NCBI GenBank assembly: GCA_905250025.1
Contig: CAJNOJ010000321.1
Span: 1 to 64,000, forward strand
DNA from: Adineta ricciae
Lineage: Eukaryota > Rotifera > Eurotatoria > Adinetida > Adinetidae
Length of the DNA: 64,000 nucleotides
Direction: 5' to 3'
Made by a program: the position numbers and the translations under genes. Positions 4,751 through 50,072 of this stretch are shown here, in pieces. Each line of letters starts with the position of its first letter. Within the stretch, counting starts at the first letter, position 1. Below the pieces are notes generated by a model. The model was not told the DNA's origin, did no database searches, and worked only from the letters and a program-made list of their open reading frames with translations.

Positions 4751-5734
4751 TTATTTCCGAAAGAGATTGACTAATGTTTTTCGAAAAACATGTCCTCCGG
4801 TTAAAGTATAAATGTAAAATGGCATTCCCGAAGCCACATTAATAAACAGAAGAAATAAATTGAAAATGAAACTTTCAATTGTACTTTGCAAAGATGATTT
4901 CGGTAAATATCTTGTTATTGTTGAATAGAATTTTGAGAAAGCAAATGGAAATGAAAATAAAAGAATAAGACTAATTTGAGCGAGAAGCATTGATAATAAA
5001 TGTCGATCTGTTCTTCGTTGTGAATTTGCTCGTCCATTATGAACATAGATTTGATTGATCCTTCCATTACTATTTGAAATTGTCGGATTTAAACGTCTTT
5101 GAGATCGACGAATGTTTGAAAGAATTAATAAACCAAAAATTAACATCAATGTCACCGGAATGAGAACAGTAATGAAAGCAAATGAGACATCGGAGAGAAT
5201 TGCACATTCGACTGTTTTCGAATAACATTTTAATGGAGTATTTGTTAAATTAGCTTCGTAGCAAAAGATTTGTTGAATTTCAAAAAGACTTGAAAGAATT
5301 AAAAGACAAAGAAATGCTCGTTTAACATTTTTTAATGAACTTCGATTTCGACGAGAAACATCTTGACTTGACAAAAACCACCGATCAATTGTAGCTAATG
5401 TTATTAACCAAAAAGCGATGGTTAATGAATTAAAATAAATATAAATACGAAATTTACATAAAATTCCATTGGTATTTCCTAAATCAGCATCCCATGTTGA
5501 CAGAAATCGAGGAAAAATGCCCGAACATAAACTAAGAAGATAAAAAATTGATGCCAGAAGAAAGAGATGCGAACAAGAATTTGAACGAAGTATTCGTTGT
5601 GAAAAAACAACAATATTGAGAAGATTGCCAATTATTCCAAAAAGAAAGATTACCAATGCTAAATAGCGATTCAATTGAAAAGAAATTGTACTTAATAGTG
5701 AAATAAGGTAAACATCATTTATGATTGAAGACAT
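4751..5734 (-). CDS. Rhodopsin-family orphan G-protein-coupled receptor
   Basis: A single-exon frame of 327 residues with seven hydrophobic segments. TM1 is 'LVIFLFGIIGNLLNIVVF' with the conserved GN. TM3 ends in 'LATIDRWF', a DRY-like motif in the form DRW. TM5 is near 'VLIPVTLMLIFGLLIL', TM6 follows a basic third loop ('RRTDRHLLSMLLAQ'), and TM7 is 'FINVASGMPFYIYTLTG' in place of NPxxY. Cysteines suited to the extracellular disulfide are present before TM3 and in loop 2. The tail is very short. It belongs to the large class A peptide-receptor-like set common in bdelloids; the ligand is unknown. A broken duplicate lies at 7272-7586. Confidence 0.85.
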   Translation of the reverse strand: MSSIINDVYLISLLSTISFQLNRYLALVIFLFGIIGNLLNIVVFSQRILRSNSCSHLFLLASIFYLLSLCSGIFPRFLSTWDADLGNTNGILCKFRIYIYFNSLTIAFWLITLATIDRWFLSSQDVSRRNRSSLKNVKRAFLCLLILSSLFEIQQIFCYEANLTNTPLKCYSKTVECAILSDVSFAFITVLIPVTLMLIFGLLILSNIRRSQRRLNPTISNSNGRINQIYVHNGRANSQRRTDRHLLSMLLAQISLILLFSFPFAFSKFYSTITRYLPKSSLQSTIESFIFNLFLLFINVASGMPFYIYTLTGGHVFRKTLVNLFRK

Positions 5735-7092
5735 TTCTTTTATGCAAGAAAAATTGTATCAAATGTTAACGTATAGATGAATTCAACATGTCTTATATCA
5801 TCGGGAAGAAAATCTATTTCGACGTTAATTCTCTTGAGCTTATTCATCAACTATATTGAAGTCTTCCTCTTATATTTCGGGATGAGAAGATTATCTTTTT
5901 CTTTTGCAGATTATCACCTTCACAACTGCTCCGCAAATTTAATAAAAATATTATTATGACTTCTAACCATAGTTGTTGATGACGGTGTCTCCTTTTCTCA
6001 TCTTTTTTTTTATCCCTGTTCACGATCAATGTGCCGGTGACATATTACGCCGTTGGGTACTTTGGCTATTTGTAATTATTGATGATTAAAACAGAGAAAT
6101 ATACCGAAAGTTTCATCTGTCATCACCGGAAAAAAAAGAACTTATGAGTCGCCATAATTTGCTATGATTCATATTTAAAAAAAATCGGTTTTCGTTCACT
6201 TACGAAAACGAATAGATATCATAAAAAAGGAAGACCAACCTCTAAAAACATTGAAAATTAAACTTTAGTCATTAAACCTTATTAGTGATCATTTTTAACC
6301 AGATGTAATATTGACTTTTGTAGACTCCTAATAGTTTCTAATGATTCATAAAGATTGTTAGTAACAGAAATCAATTTGTATCCTTTCAATGTATCGGATA
6401 TTTATGTGTCTAGAAATAATGAAATATTGAGCATTCCAGATCAAAGCCACTAGGACTTGATGCCACCAAATACTATGTAATAGACTTTAGTTAATTCTTA
6501 CTCGCGACAGGGTTTTTTAATGATCTTTAGACAATATTTAACCCATAATAACTGGCACATTTATGAATATGTTTGCAAGGAGTAGATTTTTATTATTTAG
6601 AAAGATGAGCTGTATGCTAAAGCGACATTTATTAACAGTTTTTCTAGATATGGTTAGTAAGTCATCCGACGATCTACGTAAAAAAATGTTCATTTCTTCG
6701 GCAGTATACAATCATTTTTACTTTCGTTTTACTCGAACTATATTTGTATATAATTTTCATGAGCAATTTTATTTTAGCCTTTTAATCTTGGAATCGAGTA
6801 TTTTATTAAAACTTTTTTTAGTTTTAAAATAATCTTATCGTTATATTATATATAAATAATTTCAATAAATGAATAATATGAAAATATAGAATTTGAAAAA
6901 GCAATGAAAACTGCGAGTATGAGAACCTATAAAACCCGCTGGATTCTGTTGGTTCCATAAAGGCTTCTGACGGAATCAACATTCCGAAATATTCGTCCGG
7001 GGATCTTTTATTAAATACAGATAATTAATAAGAAATATTCGTGTCATATTAGCTTCTCTTTAATAAATAGTAACTCAGGGGAATCAATCTGA
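5735..7092. other. Long intergenic stretch
   Basis: The first about 80 bases upstream of the receptor match the upstream sequence of its broken duplicate (7587-7680), so the duplicated unit included the promoter side. A short frame at 6563-6832 (+) has low-complexity, Phe-rich content and no recognisable domain; I did not call it. A motif near 6887-6910 resembles the receptor's third-loop/TM6 DNA (about 4926-4950) and may be a further remnant of the duplicate. Confidence 0.4.
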
Positions 7093-7888: not shown

Positions 7889-8728
7889 TCAAATTGAGTT
7901 GGAAGTTATTTTTCTTCTATTTATCATATAGGTGCCAATTTGAACTTTATCGATGCATTTTTGTTGTTGATAAATCGCTCGAATTTCTATTGTTGACAAA
8001 CATCGTTTGAAGGCAACTAAATCAGCAATTCGAGCTTGGACTGGAGATTCCATTGAATAGTTAATTCGTTTACAGGTGATCGTAATTGCATTTGACTGCG
8101 AAAGTCCACTCAAATGAGAGTTAAACATTTGATGAAGATTAAATGAGTTTATGTTTTGCGCATTTATCCATTTACAATAACCCGTTTGTGATTCACTATT
8201 GGTTATAACAAGATGTATCCATTGATTATCGAAGAGAGTTTGTTTATCATCGCGAAATCCGTATTGATTGTCAGTATGATAACAGTGATGTAAGTCAAGA
8301 ACATGAGTCGTTCCAATTCTAACGTTCATTTCACATTGACGAGGTAAGAAGAGCCAAAAAGAAAATGAATAATATCCATTAAAAAATGACTCGGGATATT
8401 GTTGTTCAAAGAAATCTTTCCTCGTATTGACATAAAATGGATCAATCACTTGTAAAACATAACATTGACTTGATTGGAAATTTGTTGGTGAAACAGATCG
8501 ATCGATATTTTGTGTTAATTCTCGTTGATATTCATTCATTGCCGAATTATTCAGAGGTGATTCTCGAGAGAATTTCAATGATCGATGAAACCATTGATTA
8601 AGAAAATGTTCATCGTCTGTTATACACGATCGCCAATAGTGACAAACAAACGAGGCACGAATCAGATCTGGTAGTTGATCAATGTAGCTAAAGAGGTGCT
8701 GAAACAACGCACAAGACAATTCAGCCAT
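7889..8728 (-). CDS. F-box protein with C-terminal LamG/concanavalin-like domain
   Basis: A single-exon frame of 279 residues. Residues about 5-48 look like an F-box ('LFQHLFSYIDQLPDLIRASFVCHYWRS' region), the motif that docks Skp1 in SCF ubiquitin ligases. Residues about 110-265 look like a LamG-type jelly roll: a strand pattern with 'NQWIHLVIT' in the middle and 'ARIADLVAFKRCLSTIEI' near the end, a common close of LamG_3 domains. The LamG part would be the substrate- or glycan-recognition half. No signal peptide is seen, in line with an intracellular F-box protein. Both assignments rest on pattern recognition and the F-box is short. Start is the ATG at 8726-8728. Confidence 0.6.
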   Translation of the reverse strand: MAELSCALFQHLFSYIDQLPDLIRASFVCHYWRSCITDDEHFLNQWFHRSLKFSRESPLNNSAMNEYQRELTQNIDRSVSPTNFQSSQCYVLQVIDPFYVNTRKDFFEQQYPESFFNGYYSFSFWLFLPRQCEMNVRIGTTHVLDLHHCYHTDNQYGFRDDKQTLFDNQWIHLVITNSESQTGYCKWINAQNINSFNLHQMFNSHLSGLSQSNAITITCKRINYSMESPVQARIADLVAFKRCLSTIEIRAIYQQQKCIDKVQIGTYMINRRKITSNSI

Positions 8729-9071
8729 TTGCTTTTGTCAATCACGTGGAAATATATGACCTTCAGTCGTCCGACAACTATTTTCCAAGAAAAAGGTCAA
8801 CGCATAAGTTCAATTGTGTTCGATAGACATTGACCTCTCTTAAAAGAAAATAACATCAGATGAAATTTTTCTTATCATTGTATTTAAGTAACTCGATGTG
8901 ATGAATTAATCACAGAATATCGACCGCGTTACAAAATCGAATCACGCGAAAAGCACGCTTTGATGTGAACTCTCCATTGCCGTCGAAATATAAAAGAAAT
9001 ATGAGATGAGCTCCGAAAGTTTATTCAAAAGCGCAATTGATGGAAATATTAGTAAAAAGAAAAACTAATGA
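8729..9071. other. Intergenic
   Basis: This is upstream of the F-box/LamG gene and downstream of the kelch gene, both on the minus strand. No other feature is seen. Confidence 0.4.
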
Positions 9072-11172: not shown

Positions 11173-14100
11173 ATGACTTCAACAACACTAAACGAACGGG
11201 ACATAATTGACACAATTATCAAGTTCAAAGACAATGGAAACAAATTTGTAAAGGTAGTTATTCACTCATGCGTCAACATGGACTGAATTTTTATTTTTTT
11301 CTCGTTCAGGCTGAACAATACGACGACGCGATAGATGAATATGACAAAGCCGTTCAAAAGTTACAGTTTGTAACACATGAGGGACAATGTGCTGGTTTGA
11401 ACGCAGTTTTGTATCTCAACCTGGCGTATTGTAACTTAAAACTACAAAGATATGTCACTTGTATAAGTTTTTGTGATGACGTCCTGAAACTAACTGATGA
11501 TAAGAACATACGTGAAAAATGTTTATACCGTCGAGGCGAAGCAAATCGATGTTTGATGCATATCGACCGCGCACTTCAAGATTTTCGAGCAGTTTTGGAA
11601 ATCACATCGACAAATAGAGATGCTTTGGACGGTATTGCTCGTTGTAAAACTATTCAAGTATGTATAAATCACATGTGGCCCAAAGTTTTTCTATTCTTGG
11701 CCGTATCAATTTATACCTCCCCTAGATTATCCCGTTTGAAAATGGTACAGCAGAGTATGCGGAAGTATCAGCACACGGACTACTATCGACACTATGCTGT
11801 TATAACCGTCTTGAATATATCACTTCGAATGTGCCACCTGATCTGATGTTTCCATTCGTGTCAGAAGGTCTGTCGTTACTGATGGAGATGGTATTTGATG
11901 ACGATCTTAAAAGCGGAACATTGATAAATGTTCTGGAAGCAACGAATTTTGGAGCGTTCAGTCGAACAGAAAAGATGCTGTTGGAACACAATATTATATA
12001 TGATGAGAACATAACAAATCAACTTTGTAATGAAATGGTACTTACTGAGGTCCTATTTCATGCGATAATACTACGTCGTGTCCTAAAATATCGAAAAGCA
12101 TTGGAAATTCTGGAATCTAAGAAAGAACAGTTTTCGACTTCTTCCACAATTCCGCAACGTTTATTATTTTTATTGGAAAAATGCTTCTGTCTGAAGTTAA
12201 TTCGTCTCGAGGAAAGCACTAATGGAAAAGATAGTACAATACATTCGATCTGCATTATTGATTTGCTAAGAGAAGCAACGAAAATCTGTCAAACAGAATT
12301 GAACACATTCAAAGAGTTAGTTTTTGATATTCAAACTTTAATCATAGAAGAATACATTCAACAAAAACAGCGATCAATGGTTTATGAAGAACTTTCTCGA
12401 TTGGTATACATTGGTAATCCAATATTCCAAACTCATTTCTGGTTACAAATTGCAAAAGATCAGCTCAGCGAAAAGCGAATGCTTGAATTCATTGCATGTC
12501 TAGCTGTAGCTGGTTATGCTGTTCTTAATGACGATAATGTGCTACAAATTTGTGATTATTATTTGTTAAGCGCAAAAGCGCATCTTTACGAAGGCGATTA
12601 CGATGGATTTGTTGGATGTCGCGAAAAGGGTGATAAATTACTGACTGAAACATTGTTCAAAAACGATTATTCATCGACTGCTGCGTTTGTATTTCAATAC
12701 AAAACGATGATCGCTGCATGGTATGACGAGTATGAAGCCTTATGCATCGACTTTTCAAGACGATCAAGAAAGAAGAATTGTAATTTACAAGCGGAAAAGT
12801 TGGAACGTGAAGCTTTTCGAACAGCAGACTGGAGAATCTCGCGTGGTTATGTAACGGAAGAAATGATTTTAGCTCATTGCTTTGAACTGCAAAGCAATAC
12901 AGTAAAAATACCAGAGAACTGCGCATATTTAACATACAAAATCAATGGTTTTTATAATAAAGGTAAAATCGATTGTTTGATTTTGGCAGCTGAATTCCAC
13001 GATCTCGTCCGTACTGGCTTGGACATGGATGAAGAAAAGTTATTGGAACGACTCGCGCCTATATTAAACGATGTGAATAAAGAACATACATTTGAACAAA
13101 ACATTGACCAAATCAAAAGTAAATATCCAGCATTATACAAAGATTTCCTTTCACCTATTGAGGCGTTTCTTAACGAACATAAAATCTTCAATGTGAAAAT
13201 CGTTTCAAGTGATGACTTTTATCGAAAAGTGTTAGGTATGCAAACAAAACAATTGAGTGAAAAGGATTTGTTAATACCACCGGAACATTGTTATATTCAA
13301 TACTCATCGTGTACTTTGAAAACGAATGGAACAATTTATTGCTATGTGATCTTTGGTCGACAGAATATCAAATTTGAAATTATTGATTTAAAAGAGCACA
13401 ATCTTCGAGTAGATCAGTTTTTAGATAATATAACGTTCATGGCTGAAGGATTCAATGAAAGACAAGACGACAAATCCATTGATGAATCAGATATCGATGT
13501 GGAAAAATGGACGAGATTACGAAAAGAATTTTTCAAGATACTTTTCAAGCCAATCATGATACATCTCAAACAAATCAAATGTATTCAAATCATTGCTGAA
13601 GAAGAACTGTTGTACATACCTTTCTCTAGTCTGTTAGTCTCGGAAGATGACGAGAAGTACCTGATAGACTTATTTGAAATTTCATTTGTTTTGTCAGCTG
13701 GCTTTGATCAGATTTATCAGTTGAATTCATTTAACAAAGAATCTAATGTATCATGTCAATTAGAAGTATTTACTACAGAAACAGTTCATCCTGAATTCGA
13801 AGAAGAGTACGACTTAGACTATTCACTGGTAGAAATAATCGAAAAACTTCAACATGAGCAAATTCCATTTACACCACATTCAAGTGCAACTAAAGAAGAA
13901 GTTGAAATCTTCTTAAAAAGTAGAATTCATTCAAAACCGTCCATATTTCACTATGCTGGTCATACATTCTACGATGAGCAACAAGTACAAAGTAATTATG
14001 CATTAAGTGGTTGTATGATTTTACAATATGACAATGGCAAAGAACGTCTCGAGACAATGCTTTACTCGAATCAAATAGCCAATTATGATCTAAGAACTAC

Positions 14101-14492
14101 ACGACTTGCCGTTTTAAATTCATGCAGCACATTGAAAGGTAAATTCTTTATTTGATATTCAAATCAAAGTGTCAATGAGCAGATTTCTATGTTTGGAATT
14201 ATCTATTTCAGGTAGTTCTCTTACCAGAAGTGGACATCTGGGATTGGCACGTGGATTTATTATAGCTGGTGTTTCGACTGTTGTCGCAACGACGATTGAT
14301 TTGGAAACAAATATATCAGTTGAATTTGCAAAGAGATTTTATAAGTATCTTCAAGAAGGACTCACAATTTCATGTTCATTCACTCGAACAATTCGTGATT
14401 TAAAAGAATTGAACGATTATCGAAGCCCTGATTATTGGGGACCATTCGTACTATTTGGTTGTGGATTTAACAAATTAAACATATGTACTTAA
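11173..14492 (+). CDS. TPR-CHAT protein (caspase-like peptidase family)
   Basis: Exons 11173..11253, 11310..11657, 11726..14138 and 14212..14492 join in phase to 1040 residues. Residues about 10-145 are TPR helices ('AEQYDDAIDEYDKAV', 'VLYLNLAYCNLKLQRY', 'CLYRRGEANRCL'). A long helical middle follows. The C-terminal about 170 residues carry the CHAT signature: a His in 'FHYAGH' (about residue 889), a Cys in 'LNSCST' (about 943), then 'GHLGLARGFIIAGVSTVVAT' and a closing 'YWGPFVLFG'. CHAT domains are clan CD cysteine peptidases related to caspase and separase, and the His/Cys pair is intact, so the protein may be active. In animals the closest described relatives are TTC28-like; in bacteria, CHAT proteases are partners in defence and cell-death systems. 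Substrate unknown. Confidence 0.85.
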
Positions 14493-14867: not shown

Positions 14868-17800
14868 TCATGCAACATTGCGTTCCTCTCTTGTCAGAAG
14901 ACTTCTTTGTTCGTCTTCAATTTTCTTTGCAGAATCCTAAAGGAGAAAATTTTACAAAGAAAGCGAAACTTCTTCTAAACTTACTTCGAGTTTCTTCAAA
15001 AGAACAGCAACAACAAGGTTAACAAGTACAAATTGAGTTGAGAGAACAAAAGTAACAAAGTAAATGGGAGAGATGATCATCATTAAAGAACTTTTCTCTT
15101 CATCCGTTGACTCATCTTGTCGCATTGTATCCTAATCAAAGAATTTCAATCATATTGTTGTTATTTACAAATTGACTTACTGCCATAATCGCATTCCAGT
15201 TATCTCCTGTCGCCACTCGATATAAAGTAAGAAGCGCGACTCCAAAATTCTGAAAGTTCGTGTGTTTATTTAATCCCTCGCACGGTTGTTCGTCAGTGCA
15301 GTGAATTTTGCCAAATAATTCCACGCCCAATGCAGCGAAGATGAAGAAGATAAGGAAGAATAGAAGAGACAAATTTCCGACTTGAGGAAATGCTTCGATG
15401 ACAGTATCGATAAGTGCTTGAATTCCTTTCGCCATTTTCAATAGTCTCAAAACTGCAAAATCAAGAGAAAATTAACGAGAACTCAATTGAATTGCTTATT
15501 ACTTACTTCGTGCAATTCGGAGAAGTCGCATCACTCGAATCAATGTTGGATTGATTGGCAAAACACTTTTATGACTCATTTTATCGATGACGATTCCAAT
15601 TATTGATAGAAATACAACAAATGCGTCGAATCGATTCCAACTAAAAAGTCGAATTTGAAAATAAATTTTCAAGAAACTCTAAATCTTACTTGTCACGAAA
15701 ATACTGCGACACACCAAATGCGATAATTTTCAAGAGAAATTCCATAAAGAAGATAAATGTAAACAAATAATTACAATATTCAAGAAACTTTTCCAACCAC
15801 TAAACCGCAAAATGCTCGTCAAAAGAGACACAAAAACCGAAGTTCTTTTCTTACCATTGGCATCTGATAGAATTCCACCGACATTGTTATCACGTTCAAA
15901 ACAATAACAATGGCAATAGTTATATCAAAAGCTTTGCTTTTACATAAATCAAACAAATGCTTTCTCCATGGTGAGAAATGTTTACTTTCTTCTAATTCAC
16001 AGAGTTCAATCTGTTGACATTCGAGTTCTTTTTGACGATTAATTGCAATTTGCGCTTCTTGTTGACTTTCAAGTTCTTCTCGACACGCCTGAAAATTTTC
16101 CACAATTACACCGACGAACACATTCACCACGAAAAAGCCGACCATTAAGATAAAAGCAACGAAATAGACAAACTTTCCTTCACTATGATTTCGTTTCGGT
16201 TGCATATCAACACCGACAGCATCAATTCCATTGTACATGATCGACACCCAAGCGTCTTTCGACGACAACACGAATAATGTCAACAAAGCCTAGAGAAACA
16301 ATTGATCAGAAAACAGACATTTTATTGCAAAGAAAAATACTTGAAACAAATTATCGAAATTATATTGCTGATTGATCCATTGATGTTCAGGAAGACTTAA
16401 ACATTCTTGTTTTGTTGTAACAGTGTCTGCTTGAGGACCATCACAATGATAAAATTGTCCTTTGAAGAGCTTAAACAAAAAAAAAACGTTTCCTCAAACA
16501 TGGTTCGGAAAAGTTTTTACCTGTACACCGAGAATACCGAAGATAACAAAAAATACACAACAGATAACAATTACATTACCGATTGGTTTAATCGATGAAA
16601 GTAATGATTCGATAACAAGTCTTAATCCCGGTGCGCGATTGATAACTAAAACAAACTCAATGAGATCTATAAAAAAAACCGTATAACTTCGAAGTCTTAC
16701 GTCTTAAAGGTCTTAACGCTCTTAATATTCGAAGTACTCTTAGGATACCTAGAATACGGGACGTTGTATTTGAATTCATGGTCGTTGACAGGTTACTTCG
16801 ATTCGCAATAATTAAATCTATGATTGAAATAAGAACAAGAAACCCATCCATACGATTCCAATTGTTTCGTAGATAAGTATTTCGACCAATAACCAAACCA
16901 TCGGCGAGAATTTTAATAATCATTTCAATCGTAAATACTACCGTAAACACATAATTACCCCAAGTTAAAAATTTTCTCTCCTTCAAAAAACATATCCAAA
17001 CTTGAGAAGAAAAGAAATAGTATTCTCTTTTACCAAACTGTGCGGAGCGATCGATGGACGTTCCATGGCAAGTGTTATACAGTTGAGTCCGATACAAATG
17101 AGAACTAACGTATCAAAAGATTTCTCTTCAGTTAGTTGTCGTAAAGCTATTCGAAATCTAAATTTAAGAAAGTAGATTTGTTGTTAATCGATTGACTTGG
17201 GAGAAAATAATACCGTTTTGTAGGTGAAAAAAGATAGAGCGAATAGTTGTGTCGTCTTCGAAGACACGAAAAGAATCCCAACCGAGAATAACAACTACAA
17301 CATGATTCAGAATTCTAAACGAAAACAAGAGAATGTGATCGAAAATGTGTTTTAAATGATTTACTTTCGAATTTTGAGAGGAATCTTCATTTTGTCTTCT
17401 CTTTGGATCCGAATAACTTGATCGAAACGAAGCTTCTTCGTGTATTGGTGACAAAGCATCAATATGATTTGCGTGAGTTTTCGTGTTTTCTACTGTTGCG
17501 TAACTACTCATCGACGAACTGTCGTCCATTGAGAGTGAAATATCCGCTAGCGATGGCTGAGATGATAGAATTTCGCTGGAATTTTCTTCAGTAGCATTGC
17601 TTCCAGGAGCAGTTAAATACTCGTCCGGTGAAAGAGTCGAAGAATGTTCAGAATAAGAAGAAATTGTATACTGCAAAACATTCGACGGTGGAATAAAACC
17701 ATCTTGGGCTGAATCAACAAGGATTTCGGCAGGAATTTCGTTTTCTTTCTAGAATAAATCAGTTTATATCAAATACAAAAAACTAACTTCAAAGATTCAG

Positions 17801-20800
17801 TCTCGATAAGTCAATCATTCAATGACATACGAAGCAATTTTCCCAATTGTTCAAGCCTCATATAGATCTCATTAGTATGTTGCGATACTACGTCACATCC
17901 GCATCATCCCCTACCCCCTTCTCATACTTTTCAAATCATATTCGAGATTTTACTGATTTCGTAAAATTTCTAGCTTTACCTCGTTAACAAACCCTTCGAC
18001 AAGAATTGCAACCAGCAAATTGAGTAAAACATAATTTCCGAAGATCATCAATGCAATAAAATAAAGTGCAGACCACGAACCAGTTTTTTCCATAGCTTTA
18101 TACAAAACTTCGTTCCAATCTTCTTGCGTTAAAATCTATTTCAACACATTCATCAGCCATCGAAATTCTTGTAAAGTTTTACCTGAAATACAGTTAGTAA
18201 TGCACCGCGAAGTGTATCGAAATTTGGCCGATCGAATTCACATGTTACATCTTTCAAGTCAGTCGAATTCTTCAATGTTGTCACTTCAACGCACGTGCAA
18301 CATCGACAATTCATTGTGAACTGTTGACGTGATGTTTTATTGAATCCTTGAAGTGTACAAAACTGACCACCAAATAAATGCATTCCAAGAACACTGATGA
18401 AATGAATTATAAAAACGAAATCTTTAGTTTCATCATTCAACTTACCTGAAAATGAACACAAAAAGAAGTAAAAGTAAGAGAAACGTTGCGACATTATCCA
18501 GTGTTTTCATCATGACAAGCTAAATCAGATAATCATAAAGAATACTTCGAAAATTTCTTTCACATAGCTCACAAATTGTTTTCTTAACGTTGGTGTAAAC
18601 TGCGCAAGTTTCAGTACACGCAATAATCGAAACGTTCGCAAAACTGATAAACCACTATTCTGTGCTCCATACAACTCCACAAGACTAATTATAACGATCG
18701 TACAATCAAAAAGATTCAGCGGATTTTTAATGTAAGTCCAGCATCCATCCGCTAAGATTTTCAGGATCATTTCAATGGTAAATAACGCAACAAATACATA
18801 ATTGACATGTTCTAATATATTCGTTAACCATTGCGGTTGTCCGTGATATTCTACTGACATGGAAAGTGTGTTGATAATAATCGCACAAAATATGATCAGA
18901 TCAAAACATTTGCTGTGAACGTAACGTGCGAGAATTGTTCGACACGGTGAAGAGCAATATGATGAATGTTGACTTTCATGCTGTCTTTCCTTGTTTCGGT
19001 GGGAACCATCATGAACGATCAGTTCTGATGAAAGTTGTATTCGATCAGAAACATCATTGTTCTCATGGTTTCCTTGAGCCTGTAAAAGATGAGCAGAGAA
19101 TTGAGATTAGAAGACGATAAAGCAATACTTTTTTGTTTTTTCGCTGAAGTAAACGTTTGAAAAATCTTTCAATATGGATCATGATCACTTCCCAACACGA
19201 TTTTTGATCAATACTTGATGAAATCGAATTCGTTGATTGCAAAAATCGTTCTCGTTCCGCCGCCATCAACTCTGTCTCGCGTTTTTTCGTTATACTGAAC
19301 TGTGCGGAGATCACCGCCAAACAAATATTCATCATAAAAAACGAACCAATGATCGTCAAAGCTAAAAAATAAATCCAATTCCAAAACGAATGCGCATCTT
19401 GAATATAATACATAATTTCCACCCAATTCTCCAAACTAACGATCTGAAAGAAAAGCAAAAACGATATTCTCATCAATGAGCATGCCATATACACAAACTT
19501 GAAAGATGGCCAACCATGCTGATACGATGTTATCGAAGTTAATTGCACCGGAATAGGGATTTTCATCCGAAGTAGCACAAGTTTGATAATATTGATTCCA
19601 ATTGATACAGCCAGTTGATGTTCGATTCAGTAAAGAATTCAATCCAAGTGTACACGTGACATTTTCTTGATGATATTTTGGAATATCCGAACATCTGTTT
19701 ACTCCAAGTGCGAACGAATTCGAACAAATGAATGCGCGATCGTCCGTTGGAACGTAAAACGGATGAAAAGAGAATGATTCACTAAAAGATGACAGTCCTT
19801 CGTTTTGATTCATACTCAACAGTAGGAATACAACATACTCGATTGGATAATAGTGACTAATAACTGAACTGTTCAATTGTAAGAAACATCGATTGCGTAA
19901 AACACCTTTCCAAAGCTGAACACCGATAATACCGAATATGGCAAAGAGAAAGAAATATAACAGAAGAACATTACCAAGCATCGGTAAGGTATCTAATAAA
20001 AGCATAACAAGAATACGCATCGATGGAATGGTATTAATTGCGCGTAATGGACGAAGAACACGTACTGTACGAATCGATGATAAACTCAAATTATCACCTG
20101 GAAGTAATAATTCAATCCATCTGAAAATACGAAAATTCAATTAACAAAATAAGTAAGAAAAAGAAATTCATTACCCTGTTATAACAATAAAACAATCTAA
20201 ACGATTCCATGACTCTGCTAGATAGGAATCTTTGCCGATAAAACCCATTGCAACTATTCGGATAAACATTTCAAGTGTAAAATATGCGAAAATACATTGA
20301 TCCACAATATGAAGATAAAAACAAAGATTTGTAGAACATTTATTCGATGAATCAAGCCCAATGTTTGACGGACATGGTTGGTACATGCCAAGTGTGATAC
20401 AATTCAATAGAATAACAAATAAAGTGAACCGTTCAAACCACGGTGATGAAACAAGTTTCAAACATTGATATCGTGGAAATGTTGTTTGATTGAAACAACA
20501 AAAGACTTTTTTACGTAAACCGGGAAAAGGTAAATTATCGGAATCGATTGAAACATTCGAGATTCGATCAGTATTGAGAAAATAATCAGATTCTCTTACA
20601 CCGGGTGTTTCGTCAGAAAAATTAACTGACGTTTTCGGATGTTTTCTCTCTTTCATCGGAACGAGGTAGTTGTTTGTTTTCGGCCAAGATCTTCCTACTT
20701 TTAAACAATAGGTATCATTTGTATAAGGTAAAGATAACGAGCATCGATGATTCTCTACACAAATTGAAGAAAACTGTCAGAAGAAATGAATCGAATATCT

Positions 20801-21889
20801 TAATACGTACTAAGACGTTGAAATTCATCGAGTCGGTCTGCAATCCAAGGGGATGAACTGTACCGAGTCATACGCGGTAAATTCTGCGGTAATTCGTTTT
20901 CTCTTTCGCGTCCAATAGTATTGTACATTGAATACAGACGAGCCTGTGGAGCAAACGATGAGATTTGCGATTGATATTGTGCTTTAACAGATCCCTCTAA
21001 TGTCCACAAAATACGAACGGTTCTTAGTAAACCAGATTCGGGTTGATCATGAGATTCGAGATATTCTAGTAATGGTTCGATTGAGAACGGATCAAGGAAA
21101 AGAACAGTAATCTGTTTGTTTTGAATTGTTTTGCAAAAACGAGCAAGATTAAAACTATCTTCGGGTGGTAAAAGTACCAGTGTGCCCGAACGAATGACGA
21201 TTAATGGAATTAAAATTTCAAATAAATGAATAATCCATGAAGATTCTACTACTTGAAAAACTTTTTCACCAAATCGCGACTCCCATTGAATGATATGTTG
21301 TAGATTTGCAACAAGAGATGCGTGTGTATGAATAATTCCTATTTGTCTCTTGTTTACATCGGATGGAAACACTACGAAACTTGGATTATCATTTTTGATA
21401 CTCTCTACTGAAAGAAAACGAACAAAATCATGTCAGAGAAGATTTCTTCTCAATCAACTTACGTTTTATCACGTTCAACTTGCTATTTTCAGTTAATAGA
21501 ATGCGTTCGATATTAATCATAAAAATATTTCTTTGTGTCATTGTCGAAAATCGTCGATAAGTATTCTCATGAACGAGCACATATCGACTCGGAATCGATT
21601 CCATCAATGTACGAATATGTACAAACGAATCTGTTGGATTTAACGGACAATAAGCCCCGCCAGAGTACATAATCGCTAACAATCCGCAAACCATTTCTAA
21701 ACTTCGATCAACATATTGATAAACAATTTCGCCTTTCTTTATTCGAAGATATTGAGTAAGACGAACAACATTCGTTAACAATTCATCGTATGTCCATGTT
21801 TGTTCACTCAATTCGATCGCAATTTGATTTGGTGAAGCATGTGCAACTTCAAAAAACATGTCCAGAATGTTTTTCGAAGATGACATCAT
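14868..21889 (-). CDS. T-type (Cav3) calcium channel with an N-terminal adenylation-like domain
   Basis: Twenty-one exons join in phase to 1932 codons plus stop: 21463..21889, 20811..21407, 20175..20754, 19499..20120, 19129..19443, 18573..19079, 18446..18519, 18183..18393, 17980..18135, 17365..17748, 17214..17314, 17034..17157, 16701..16980, 16521..16645, 16341..16469, 15855..16289, 15690..15799, 15507..15640, 15181..15452, 14985..15131 and 14868..14936. The channel has four 6-TM repeats with Arg-rich S4 segments ('[15 protein letters not shown]', '[18 protein letters not shown]'). The pore loops are SLENW, QEDW, SSKDAW and TGDNW, giving the E-E-D-D filter of Cav3. IV-S6 is followed by only about 30 residues, so the tail is short, as is the I-II linker. 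The first two exons encode a degenerate AMP-binding domain (separate entry) joined by a 56-nt intron (20755..20810) in matching phase. If that junction is not used, the channel could start at the ATG at 20654-20656, giving 1558 residues. Confidence 0.8.
20811..21889 (-). other. Degenerate NRPS-type adenylation domain encoded by the channel gene's first two exons
   Basis: About 341 residues resemble the N-terminal subdomain of AMP-binding (NRPS adenylation) enzymes: '[14 protein letters not shown]', '[14 protein letters not shown]', '[12 protein letters not shown]' (A2-like) and '[13 protein letters not shown]'. Key catalytic motifs are lost. The A3 phosphate loop TSG(S/T)TGxPK is replaced by a segment reading [10 protein letters not shown]. 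The A5 motif YGxTE is replaced by YNTIG. The part after A5, including the C-terminal lid with its lysine, is missing. Adenylation therefore seems impossible. The frame is free of stops across both exons (21463..21889 and 20811..21407), which argues for retention. Related NRPS-like proteins in bdelloids are usually explained by horizontal transfer; that origin is inference here. Confidence 0.7.
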
Positions 21890-23966: not shown

Positions 23967-24987
23967 TCATTTGTCTTTACGCTGTTTAACCCGTTTATCT
24001 CTTGTTTTATATTCCTGAACATAAAAATTCCGGAACAGCAATAACATTATAACCATATAACCACCGAGCATCAATTGACCCCTAAAATAAACATTCAAAC
24101 TTTCGAATTCAATCGAAAACTCTCTTTACCACAATGGATAATCGCATCCATAAATAATTCCTCCAAATGTATGAGTTAAAACAATGACAAATTGTGTCTA
24201 AATACACAAATAGTTTCAAAGAAAATCGTTCTTTTTAATCTTACAAGTTGCAACATTGTTATGTATCGTTTCCACCAAAGTTTATCGCGTAATGATGGAA
24301 AAACTGACAAACCATAATACGAATACATAAAAACATGAACGATTGAATTTAAAAAAGGTCCCATCCAAGCTTGTCCACCCTAAGCAAAGCATTTTGTATT
24401 ATTATCAAGAACAATCGGAATGAAAGATCTTACCGGTACCCATGTTAAAACAATCCACCAGAGAAAAAACATAGTTGAATGATGGAAAACATGTAGAAAT
24501 GTAATTTGATTGAAACGTTTTCGAATAATCATGAATATCGTATCCAAAAACTCGATTAATTTCGAAAAATAATAATACCAAAGAGCATTCGCAACTCGCA
24601 TTTCATTTTTATCATTCGTCACAATCATTCTCTGACAAATTACATTATATCGACTACGATAGACACCCAAAAATATCTAAAGAAACAAGAAATAACAAAA
24701 TCGATTTCATGTGTGATCTTCTTTACCTCGGTCACCATATATCCTGACAAAACAACGAGAGCCATATTGTAGAGAAAAAGTATCATAGCCGGAACACGAA
24801 CTTCTGGCCGATTTTTCATATATTTTGGACCGAAATAGACAATCAGGAGATAAATAAACGTTAGGAAAAGTGTTGGAATTGGATCAGCCCATAATAAGAA
24901 CCAATCTTTCGTTCGATAGTCAGCTTGTTTCAACGCATATCGGTAGAAACCGACATGTTCCATGAGCCAATCATTCAACCAAGTCAT
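23967..24987 (-). CDS. ELOVL-family very-long-chain fatty acid elongase
   Basis: Exons 24727..24987, 24434..24676, 24245..24379, 24130..24197 and 23967..24081 join in phase to 273 residues, normal for ELOVL. These ER membrane enzymes condense malonyl-CoA with long-chain acyl-CoA. The family signature is present: '[15 protein letters not shown]' just before the histidine box 'HVFHH', then '[15 protein letters not shown]', '[13 protein letters not shown]' and a 'TQFVIVLTH' segment. About seven hydrophobic segments are visible. The C-terminus is lysine-rich and ends RKDK, which suits ER retrieval. The motif order matches the metazoan ELOVL4/ELOVL7 type; I cannot assign the exact subtype or chain-length preference. 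Confidence 0.9.
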
Positions 24988-25062
24988 TCTCTATCTAAAA
25001 TATATAAAAAAAAACTTATTATATGAAATTTCATATAAATATTTCAAATAAAAAGATGTATT

Positions 25063-47082: not shown

Positions 47083-50072
47083 ATGGCAAATGCGAAAGGA
47101 AGACGAGATCGATGGTCATCACTTGATCAGCCAACCAAGTTTGATCATTCAGATGAGATTTCAATGAATTTAGAAATGAATTCAACTGTTGAGAGACAAT
47201 CTGAAGAGATAGAGTAAGTACATTTCCTTCTCGAGGAGAAATATCGATTATACACGAACGTTGATCAGATAGAATTAGATATCGGAGGTTGGTCTCACCC
47301 AATGATGATTAACGATTTACAATAACAACAGAAATGTACAGTCATCTCATCATATGTCAAATAAATAAGAGCAACAGCATCAATATAGACATCATAGAAG
47401 CAAGAAAACACGATAGATCTCAAGCTCAGTGATGAGGAGAATCGAAGAAGAAGAAGAAGAAGAACGATAAGATGATTAAATGATGGAAGGCGAGAGAAAC
47501 ACGGGAAAAGAAATGGATAAAGACTATGTCTTTTCTTCCTACGAGCCAAAAATACAGATGATTATTAGAATAAGCATGTGTTTCCGATCTATTTAGTACT
47601 TTGACTAGAAAAAGTGACGACAATCCTAACCTACAGTTGTCTGTAAATACCACATCTATACGACGAACACCAACACCCGTACAAGTTATGACACAACAAG
47701 CGCTTCGACTTGCCGAAAAAATTAATGATCAATATTTAACTTGTAAAATATGTTTGGTAGGATCGAATGAATTGTATAAGAAGCAAAATATTGCATTTCG
47801 ATGTTCTCTTTTTCAGGAACCATTCAAAGATCCGAAATGCTTAACATGTCTTCACACATTCTGCGAAGAATGTATTGAAAATCATGTTTCTGCTCAGAGG
47901 TAAACTATATTTCATTCATCTTCGACAATTTCTTTGCTAAAAATAGTCGTCATTCTTCTTCGAACACCTCCTCAGTCCTTCAGAAGACAATGTGCGCGCA
48001 TGTGTCAATAAGTAGATACACTCTTCGTCACATCATATCTCATTCTCTATGCTTCATTACTTTATAACATATTGTTATCTTCCTTTGCATTTGTTTTCTT
48101 GTGCGTTGTACAATACGATATACACATTACTTCTTTTCTTCTCACAGAATCGAGAAAGAAAAGATTCCTTCAAATGAAAGACACTCATTAGAAGTAAATA
48201 CAACTTATGCGTTATGGGTAAATTCTCTTTAGGTCATTGACAAAAGGTTTCTAATGACAGCTGTATCGATGCTGTTGGCGAGTTTTTCACTCTTTCGAAG
48301 AAAAGATGCCTCAAGTGTCTTTGTCCTGCTCTTTTGCGTTTCTTCGATCAAATCTTCTCGTTTAGATCGTACAAATACACAGATTACCGTGAATTTGCTT
48401 GTCCTATATGTCGAAAGAAGACGTCGATTCCAACAGGTGGCGTTCACAAGTTGCCAGACAACTTTCTCGTCGCCGGTTTATCCGAAATGATTACTCAGAA
48501 GAGCGTTGGACCGAACAGTGCTGTTCGAGTTTTAGCCAATTGCGAAATCTGCAAAGCTGTTCACGATCGCGAACGTGAAGCTACATCGCGCTGTCTCGAA
48601 TGTCAAAAATTTCTCTGTCGTCATTGCGTTCAGGCACATCAAACCATCACCGTCACACGCGACCATTCGATATACGAATTAGAAATCGAAAAAGACATTC
48701 TTTGCAAAGTAATGTATCTTTCATTCTTAGTTCCACTTCTAAATTGTTTTCTTCCAGCATCATCCAACCGAATTCGTTCGTTATTATTGTGAACAATGTG
48801 AAGTCTGCATTTGTATTGCCTGTACATATGTCGATCATCGTGATCATCAATTAACGGACTTTCGAACGGCTGCTATGAATCATAAAGCTTATATAATGGA
48901 TTGTCTCGAAAATTGTAAAACACGTATGGGAGAATTAGAAGCTTATATGAATGTCATACGACAATGTGATGTTAACATCGCTCAAATTGAAGCGAGTATT
49001 CATGCGTTAGCAGCGACTTTTGAAAAATCGTTACGTGTCAAAGAACAAGAACTGGTTGAACAGATCACAAAGTTGTATGGAGATGAAACTGACGAATTCA
49101 TTAAACGTCGAGAGGAATTAGATGAATTCTACGAGCAAATCAAGAATACTTGTTCGTTGACAGAATTAGTTATTCACGGTAAAGATATCGAATTGTTATT
49201 GGTAAAAAAGCAATTGTTAGAAAAATTTCATGAGTTACAATCGGTTGAACTCGAACCATTGCCTGACAATCTCAATATGCACATCAAATTCGAACCCGGA
49301 CAACTAAATTTAGGAAGATTAACCGTTTCGGAGATGACACCGACGGACGATGATGAATGCGAAGGAGAATTAGAAGACGAAGAATATTCAAATAATAATA
49401 ATAATGTATCGACCAATTCTCACACTTCATCTTTGACACAAAACAAAACTTTTTCTTCGATTTCAACTCAAACAGACGATATCACAACTACAACACAAGC
49501 AATTCAGGTTTCATTTCCCATCGCTGCTACTTTATTTTTCATTTTGTCCTATTTAGACAATCGATGATTCTCTTTCAAATGGTGATCTACTCGAGAATGG
49601 AAATGTTTCATCGACAACTTCATTACCAATTGATGAGAATGGTAGTCTATCACCAGCTCCATCATCATCAACCTCAACAGAAAACACGACAAATATCTAT
49701 GAGCAAAGTAACAAGTTATCACGTCGTGTTCGTCGTCTTCTCAAACCGACATGTAGTGTCGCTGTTTTACCCAACACTGATGTTATTATTCTCGATTGTG
49801 AACAAAATCTCGCATCAATTCTTGACAAAAAAGGCAAATTCAAATATTGTTTCACCAGTGATATTCCAACTGCCGAACAGAAAGGATTCGCTGTTGCTAA
49901 TTTTTCATCAACAGCAAATGTTAGTAGCGCACCGGCTGGTGCCAGTCGAACTGTTCGTATCCCGACTCAGCAGGGTTTATTATGTATTAAACTGAAAAAC
50001 GAACGAGTTGGTGAATTACCATTTGGTTTTACCGTTCATGCATTTAATTCAATTTCGGAAAGTGACAATTGA
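47083..50072 (+). CDS. TRIM-type RING / B-box / coiled-coil E3 ligase
   Basis: Exons 47083..47213, 47597..47756, 47817..47899, 48366..48708, 48758..49507 and 49557..50072 join in phase to 660 residues. The RING finger reads 'CKICLEPFKDPKCLTCLHTF', 'CEECIENH', then 'CPICRKK'. B-box1 is 'CEICKAVHDREREATSRCLE', B-box2 runs from 'YYCEQCEVCICIACTYVDH', and a coiled coil of about 120 residues follows. Spacing and the 'GGVHKLPDNFL' stretch after the RING resemble TRIM2/TRIM3/Brat-type proteins, which normally end in filamin and NHL domains. Here an acidic, Asn/Ser/Thr-rich linker leads to a C-terminal about 110-residue segment ('VLPNTDVIILDCEQNL', 'IPTQQGLLCIKLKN') that could be at most one beta-propeller-like blade. 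So it looks like a TRIM-NHL relative without the propeller. Introns 1 (383 nt) and 3 (466 nt) are longer than usual here. Confidence 0.8.

Follow-up and report, generated by a model that had tools for sequence, protein, structure and literature searches.

The window analysed here, 64,000 nucleotides of contig C321 of the 130.5-Mb Adineta ricciae assembly, carries on its minus strand, from 21889 to 14868, one spliced frame in which an adenylation-like part of the kind found in non-ribosomal peptide synthetases (NRPSs), hereafter the A part, is followed by a complete calcium channel of apparent Cav3 (T-type) identity. A preliminary description of this DNA had reported two stop-free AMP-binding exons at 20811-21889 and a 56-nt GT..AG intron leading in matching phase into Cav3, and these coordinates check out on the minus strand, on which all features of the gene given below also lie. 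Its count of 21 exons and 1932 codons agreed with a hand-built model, but both had missed a 57-nt intron at 19782-19838, in frame and stop-free, which splits exon 4 and is spliced out in the public annotation of the other haplotype (protein P0001, without these residues), and so the better model has 22 exons and 1913 amino acids. We consider it probable, at roughly 70%, that this is a single fused gene in which the adenylation-like domain has been kept as a non-catalytic module, a reading built on the comparison of sequences.

The channel runs from its first in-frame ATG at 20654-20656 to a stop codon ending at 14868. Its best PDB sequence matches were alpha-1H (1441.8 bits), alpha-1I (1407.1 bits) and alpha-1G (1397.1 and 1393.4 bits), with Cav1.2 next at 577 bits, and the filter motifs SLENW, TQEDW, SSKDAW and ATGDNW (starting at residues 721, 1090, 1530 and 1828) give E, E, D and D in that order. 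An E/E/D/D selectivity filter is the rule for Cav3 T-type channels, and from these matches and motifs the channel part is predicted to be a Cav3.

Contig C123 of the same genome is taken to be the homologous haplotype, because it and the window align collinearly along 9 kb (91.7% identity) and have the same elongase neighbour. The public A. ricciae protein P0001, annotated as fused, corresponds to C123 (1899 of 1905 residues exact, the other 6 being single residues at piece joins). Exons 1-3 are equal in length in C123 and the window, with no indels and no stops.

The adenylation-like part and its origin

The A part is encoded by exon 1 (21463-21889; motifs A1 and A2; 90% identical to the C123 copy) and exon 2 (20811-21407; the rest of the adenylation core, with degenerate A3 and A5 motifs and a poorly conserved tail), separated by intron 1 (21408-21462; 55 nt, phase 1). 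The Pfam AMP-binding domain (PF00501) was matched at residues 12-304 with an E-value of 5.8e-24 and 85 bits against a curated cut-off of 29.9, and Ion_trans follows. Between the haplotypes, the 341 codons of the A part differ by 24 nonsynonymous and 31 synonymous changes, a ratio of nonsynonymous to synonymous rates (dN/dS) of 0.20 (Fisher test, p 1.1e-8; 0.255 in exon 1 and 0.18 in exon 2), compared to 0.19 for the channel. The A part is thus real coding sequence under purifying selection about as strong as that on the channel. A pseudogene was ruled out by this ratio and by the stop- and indel-free exons 1-3, and a chance open frame by the haplotype comparison, the selection and the existence of homologues.

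Conservation extends to the fused proteins of other bdelloids, with 198 of 340 aligned residues identical in Adineta vaga. Residues 61-90 and 203-232 are 80% and 70% identical with A. vaga and 60-77% with Rotaria sp. Silwood-1 and Rotaria socialis, residues 1-30 are 73% identical with A. vaga and 40-53% with the other two, and residues 293-341 are poorly conserved. That last stretch, together with the loss of catalytic motifs and of the C-terminal subdomain described below, would suit a decaying passenger, fused and translated but functionless; the low dN/dS over 341 codons free of indels and stops, and the residues shared with A. vaga, argue against this and make it the least probable of the alternatives considered.

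Motifs A1, A2 and the A4 region are retained. The A3 phosphate-binding loop has the consensus T-S-G-S/T-T-G-x-P-K and A5 reads YGPTE; the loop departs from its consensus in the window, in C123/P0001 (FSSDVNKRSIG) and in A. vaga (VTSSIMKRPAA), and at A5 the window has MYNT, P0001 MYKT and A. vaga MYDT. In the window and in A. vaga the C-terminal subdomain (A6-A10, including A7, A8 and the A10 lysine) is gone, the Pfam match ending at position 319 of the 384 in the profile. The subdomain is also lacking from the fused Silwood-1 proteins, perhaps as an effect of the gene models; it is present in the A part of R. socialis (AMP-binding_C at 20.7 bits, under the cut-off of 24.5), with the A8 arginine changed to cysteine and the A10 lysine to glutamine, while the Silwood-2 protein P0236 keeps both the A8 arginine and the A10 lysine (24.2 bits, again below 24.5). 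No carrier or condensation domain lies between A part and channel. Because A3 and A5 are eroded and A6-A10 are missing, the Adineta A part is predicted to be a pseudoenzyme from which no adenylate-making is expected. A predicted structure of the fused Silwood-1 protein P0003 (29 rows) had a mean predicted local distance difference test score (pLDDT) of 44.9, and its residues 293-468, below 50, are compatible with a flexible linker; that of P0236 (10 rows; mean pLDDT 59.3) gave 1amu as its best fold match (E-value 1.3e-28, template modelling score 0.49), which adds little beyond the sequence.

To place the A part, a tree of adenylation domains was made from 23 rows, with 6 bacterial rows as outgroup (two of them long branches) and with the fused protein P0005 left out. 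The A parts of the window and of P0001-P0004, together with P0236, formed one clade (100/99), which nested (98/98) with two NRPS genes of this genome, on contigs C768 and C181, and with P0237, and these rows adjoin other bdelloid first-module adenylation domains. Intron 1 stands at the same place and in the same phase, by eye, in the NRPS genes on C181 and C768. Given this nesting and the common intron 1, the captured piece appears to be a duplicated copy of a resident bdelloid NRPS gene. The preliminary description had proposed the capture of a horizontally acquired domain; the in-frame fusion stands, and a fresh horizontal transfer into the channel gene is ruled out by the same nesting and shared intron. 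Among 67 A-part matches in the genome, from a search that scores the best 100 candidates, none lay on C32, C159 or C5, which hold the other Cav3 loci. NRPSs are described as abundant in bdelloids and as not found in Brachionus calyciflorus in the account given by PMC10531068. Protein P0125, named as from Streptomyces sp. Wh19, matched the A part of R. socialis at 36% identity across 30% of the query, above the other bacterial rows listed, and could be contamination or a donor-like lineage.

The join, the linker and the channel start

Were intron 2 (20755-20810; 56 nt, GTACGT..TAG) retained, the frame of the A part would end at a TAA at 20800-20802, and the preliminary description saw in the 144 bases from there to the channel ATG little space for the terminator and promoter that two genes would need. 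Both the TAA and the ATG are where it placed them; the argument is weaker than it appeared, as a short gap suits an operon with a trans-splice acceptor, and bdelloids use spliced leaders. The locus would then be a tight head-to-tail pair or operon, encoding a truncated adenylation-domain protein ending at 20800 and a separate channel. The channel mRNA would begin near 20754, either with a spliced leader or from a promoter of its own, and would be translated from the 20656 ATG or, in C123, from the ancestral one; gene finders sometimes fuse such neighbours. We regard two genes as unlikely. The frame is open, and intron 2 is phase-matched, GT..AG and frame-joining, in both haplotypes. When the interval from donor to ATG was shuffled with dinucleotides preserved, a GT..AG intron that joined the frames, measured 45-60 nt and scored no worse than the real one arose in 18 of 3000 shuffles (a frame-joining intron of any score in 344 of 3000), which also argues against two genes. 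None of 11 poly(A) hexamer variants occurs in 20900-20560, which would count in the same direction; the control is soft, the channel's own 3' end holding only CATAAA and AATGAA, and the scan of the join region is uninformative. An apparent adenylation homology crossing intron 2 into exon 3 was dropped, by eye, as the stretch better matched the channels' own 5' region.

The start of the channel was compared with unfused Cav3 genes, namely those on C32 with C159 and two C5 copies of the same genome, and with unfused proteins of other bdelloids. All three alignment modes used placed the start methionine of these unfused channels at Val361 of the window (GTA, 20696-20698), 14 codons before Met375. 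There is indeed an in-frame ATG at 20654-20656, the codon of Met375, as had been claimed, but it is not the ancestral channel start, and the idea that it was, with its methionine kept in all fused proteins, is ruled out by this alignment. The ancestral position is valine in the window and in A. vaga, so that A. vaga and one of the two A. ricciae haplotypes would have lost the channel's own start, a loss that a fused gene should bear more easily than an independent one. Aligning the old start to Val361 and not to Met375 thus slightly favours the fusion and lowers both the reading as two genes and that as two transcript forms taken up below.

The A. ricciae haplotypes differ at 20698-20696, with GTA in the window and ATG in C123 (L009), so that a product of the channel alone, if made, would have a different start in the two. 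The C5 paralogue (L026, C5:291000-300900) has its IISLESWV exon twice, one copy partly masked, and a piece of its first exon doubled, which is either an assembly artefact or a tandem duplication.

Exon 3 (20175-20754) holds a linker, the Cav3 N-terminus and the start of repeat I. The linker itself (20699-20754), which together with one base of exon 2 encodes residues 342-360, probably corresponds to a former 5' untranslated region (5'UTR) of the channel. As good an alignment was found in 0 of 5000 shuffles for the A. ricciae and A. vaga linkers, in 2 of 5000 when the linker of R. socialis was set against the in-frame translation of the C32 5'UTR, and in 91 of 5000 for A. vaga and R. socialis. 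The 19 codons before the old start contain an in-frame stop in two of the four unfused loci (the C5 haplotype pair) and none in C32 or C159, nor is there one in either haplotype of the fused gene. Since the stretch before the old start resembles the 5'UTR of a paralogue, the linker would most simply be 5'UTR that became coding once splicing linked a donor further upstream to one of the channel's acceptors.

Fused and unfused relatives, and the case against a single gene

A search of other bdelloids for the fusion, which the preliminary description had suggested, was made with residues 1-560 at the protein level, and the best 120 of 1106 matches (25 of them named as bdelloid) included fused annotations from A. 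vaga, R. socialis and Silwood-1. Five fused clusters are among the matches listed, P0001 of A. ricciae, P0002 of A. vaga (59% identical across the full 560-aa query), P0004 of R. socialis, and P0003 and P0005 of Silwood-1. The fused annotations therefore span four species and two genera, Adineta and Rotaria, which are placed in different bdelloid families, and this spread argues against two genes. A channel tree of 30 rows (the window, 25 bdelloid proteins, C32 and 3 outgroup rows, with C159 and the two C5 copies left out) put all 6 fused channels in one clade of 15 rows (100/99). According to the methods of the eLife 2021 set, the genes of A. ricciae, Rotaria magnacalcarata, R. socialis and Rotaria sordida were predicted with published RNA sequencing (RNA-seq), by implication from the same species, and for Silwood-1, Silwood-2 and Adineta steineri the RNA-seq came from a relative (PMC7943196). 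RNA-seq is also given as lying behind the A. ricciae gene set of 2018 (PMC5916493). P0001 and P0004 presumably stem from the eLife 2021 set.

A number of points weigh against a fusion, and most of them favour two genes. In the 15-row channel clade, nine rows are annotated without an A part, including three from R. sordida, which, like R. magnacalcarata, had RNA-seq behind its gene models. The unfused R. magnacalcarata protein P0020 is the sister (100/100) of the fused R. socialis P0004, the label 'fused' changes 3 times on the channel tree with at least 2 changes forced by supported branches, and P0236 of Silwood-2 is annotated as an adenylation domain alone. In the join itself, with matrices built from the other 19 introns of a scoring set of 20 (the intron at 19838-19782 being outside it), intron 2 has the lowest-scoring acceptor and the second-lowest donor of the 20, and its leave-one-out sum of 7.11, against -0.4, 7.1, 8.1 and upwards, is second or third lowest. 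The 33 codons from the A part to the ATG at 20656 have a dN/dS of 0.92, which is not different from 1 with little power (the next 41 codons give 0.69, likewise not different from 1), and this weak point of the fusion is either coding sequence with little constraint or partly non-coding. The linkers of A. ricciae and R. socialis did not resemble each other significantly (494 of 5000 shuffles as good). The ancestral methionine is present in P0001/C123, P0003, P0004 and P0005, that is in 4 of the 6 fused rows, and in the window Met375 remains. The linker facts, moreover, partly suit a channel mRNA that starts there by trans-splicing, and the unfused paralogues have, by eye, an AG 69 (C32) and 89 (C5) bases before their ATG, possible acceptors for trans-splicing or within a 5'UTR.

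Six of the nine unfused rows start at the column of the ancestral methionine (2 of these unsure because of gaps) and three start further on. In these species an A part may lie upstream and have been left out of the protein model, or may be absent. Two A. steineri proteins (P0007, P0010) fall in the clade of the fused channels with no A part annotated, and cluster with R. magnacalcarata P0025 (99/98) instead of joining the remaining Adineta; this grouping may reflect a second ancient copy in the channel clade.

In another possible arrangement, which overlaps with the explanation we favour, the gene gives rise both to a long mRNA spanning the fusion and to one for the channel only. The latter would come from an internal promoter and start at the ancestral methionine where this is kept, or else at Met375, making the A part optional. 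This arrangement is consistent with the purifying selection on the A part and with the methionine found at or just past the ancestral start in every fused protein examined, and is opposed by the loss of the ancestral start itself in the window haplotype and A. vaga. We hold it to be doubtful, if somewhat less so than two genes.

Neighbouring genes, proposed history and known systems

Just downstream of the channel, on the opposite strand, an open frame of 809 amino acids (11726-14155, plus strand, stop to stop) has a C-terminal CHAT domain (Pfam E-value 3.2e-11). Upstream of the fused gene are exons of an ELO-type fatty-acid elongase (24380-25002, minus strand), with a haplotype copy on C123; further elongase copies at 49-59%, found on C135 and C195 and perhaps representing the homoeologous pair, are on contigs other than those of the Cav3 paralogues. 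Other frames in the window match NHL repeats (363-1229), FG-GAP repeats (1929-2630), a rhodopsin-type G-protein-coupled receptor (4751-5758), an F-box-like domain (7889-8737) and a B-box zinc finger (48743-49567).

Under the fusion that we favour, a bdelloid NRPS of presumed non-animal origin would have supplied a duplicate of its first adenylation domain, which would have landed just upstream of one Cav3 copy before the split of Adineta and Rotaria. A splice donor of the adenylation domain would have been joined to an acceptor in the 5' region of the channel, turning about 19 former 5'UTR codons into the linker and giving the channel a cytosolic N-terminal domain of some 340 to 540 residues. 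Catalysis would then have been lost stepwise after this one fusion, R. socialis keeping the C-terminal subdomain with altered A8 and A10, and Adineta having reached an end state with the C-terminal subdomain, A3 and A5 lost, while the ancestral channel start became valine in A. vaga and the window haplotype. The folded, non-catalytic module, kept by selection, would most likely bind a ligand or partner and set the placement or gating of the channel, and a shorter channel-only form from another start may coexist. The analysis establishes the frame, its conservation between the haplotypes, the selection, the phylogeny and the loss of motifs; we infer the spanning mRNA, the 5'UTR origin of the linker and any effect on the channel. 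A role of the A part in gating or trafficking, suggested by analogy, is a tentative proposal to which we give somewhat less than even odds. More speculatively, and in our view improbably, a pseudo-adenylation domain of microbial ancestry could control Cav gating or placement as a TRPM2-like sensor evolved independently, perhaps with an acyl or amino-acid ligand tied to the animal's own NRPS chemistry and with a channel-only isoform beside it.

If a fused mRNA is confirmed, a gene central to animal excitability would have been remodelled by adding a domain whose family is presumed to have entered by horizontal transfer, a change common to two genera. The amount of catalytic apparatus that remains varies among the fused and related A parts (those of Silwood-2, R. 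socialis, A. vaga and A. ricciae), making the turn from enzyme to non-catalytic module testable species by species. We know of no N-terminal enzyme domain in this channel class, and among the open-licence papers listed by the searches, judged by title or the start of the abstract, there was no report of an N-terminal enzyme domain on a voltage-gated calcium channel or of a bdelloid T-type/adenylation fusion.

The fused channel is like the Cav3 channels alpha-1G, 1H and 1I in its T-type closest relatives and its E/E/D/D filter, and unlike them in carrying a 341-residue adenylation-like segment and a new linker before the usual start. With the first adenylation domains of bdelloid NRPSs (C768, C181, C278, C548; P0121-P0124) the A part shares its family, the retained A1, A2 and A4 region and, with C768 and C181, intron 1; it differs from them in its broken A3 and A5, in having no A6-A10 subdomain and in having no carrier or condensation domain before the channel. 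As a whole the fusion would unite two known kinds, channel-enzyme fusions and chimeras formed by horizontal gene transfer (HGT).

Among the former, TRPM2, the closest model for how such a module might work, has its enzyme domain at the C-terminus, whereas in the bdelloid fusion it is N-terminal. TRPM2 is described as a channel activated by ADP-ribose with a NUDT9-H domain that is catalytically inactive in humans (PMC6461439). The bdelloid fusion would share with it and with other chanzymes (PMC6461439, PMC11479946) an enzyme-derived domain on a cation channel, and with human TRPM2 the later loss of catalysis. The bdelloid fusion differs in its channel family and its enzyme, and has no known ligand. 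The enzyme activity that characterises chanzymes is not expected in Adineta, where A3, A5 and A6-A10 are absent, as judged by motifs only.

HGT-chimeras have been described from arthropods (Kapoor et al. 2026, PMC13389597). There non-metazoan and metazoan intervals stand in one open reading frame under purifying selection, as would be so here given the presumed non-animal origin of the A part; the present case differs in its rotifer host and in that the metazoan half is a voltage-gated channel and the capture was apparently from a resident duplicate. Closest in host is the bdelloid N4CMT methyltransferase-chromodomain fusion, in which, as set out in PMC8885841, a horizontally acquired domain is likewise joined to an animal domain and kept in bdelloids, and which is unlike the channel fusion in that N4CMT is an active enzyme with the animal domain added onto the bacterial one.

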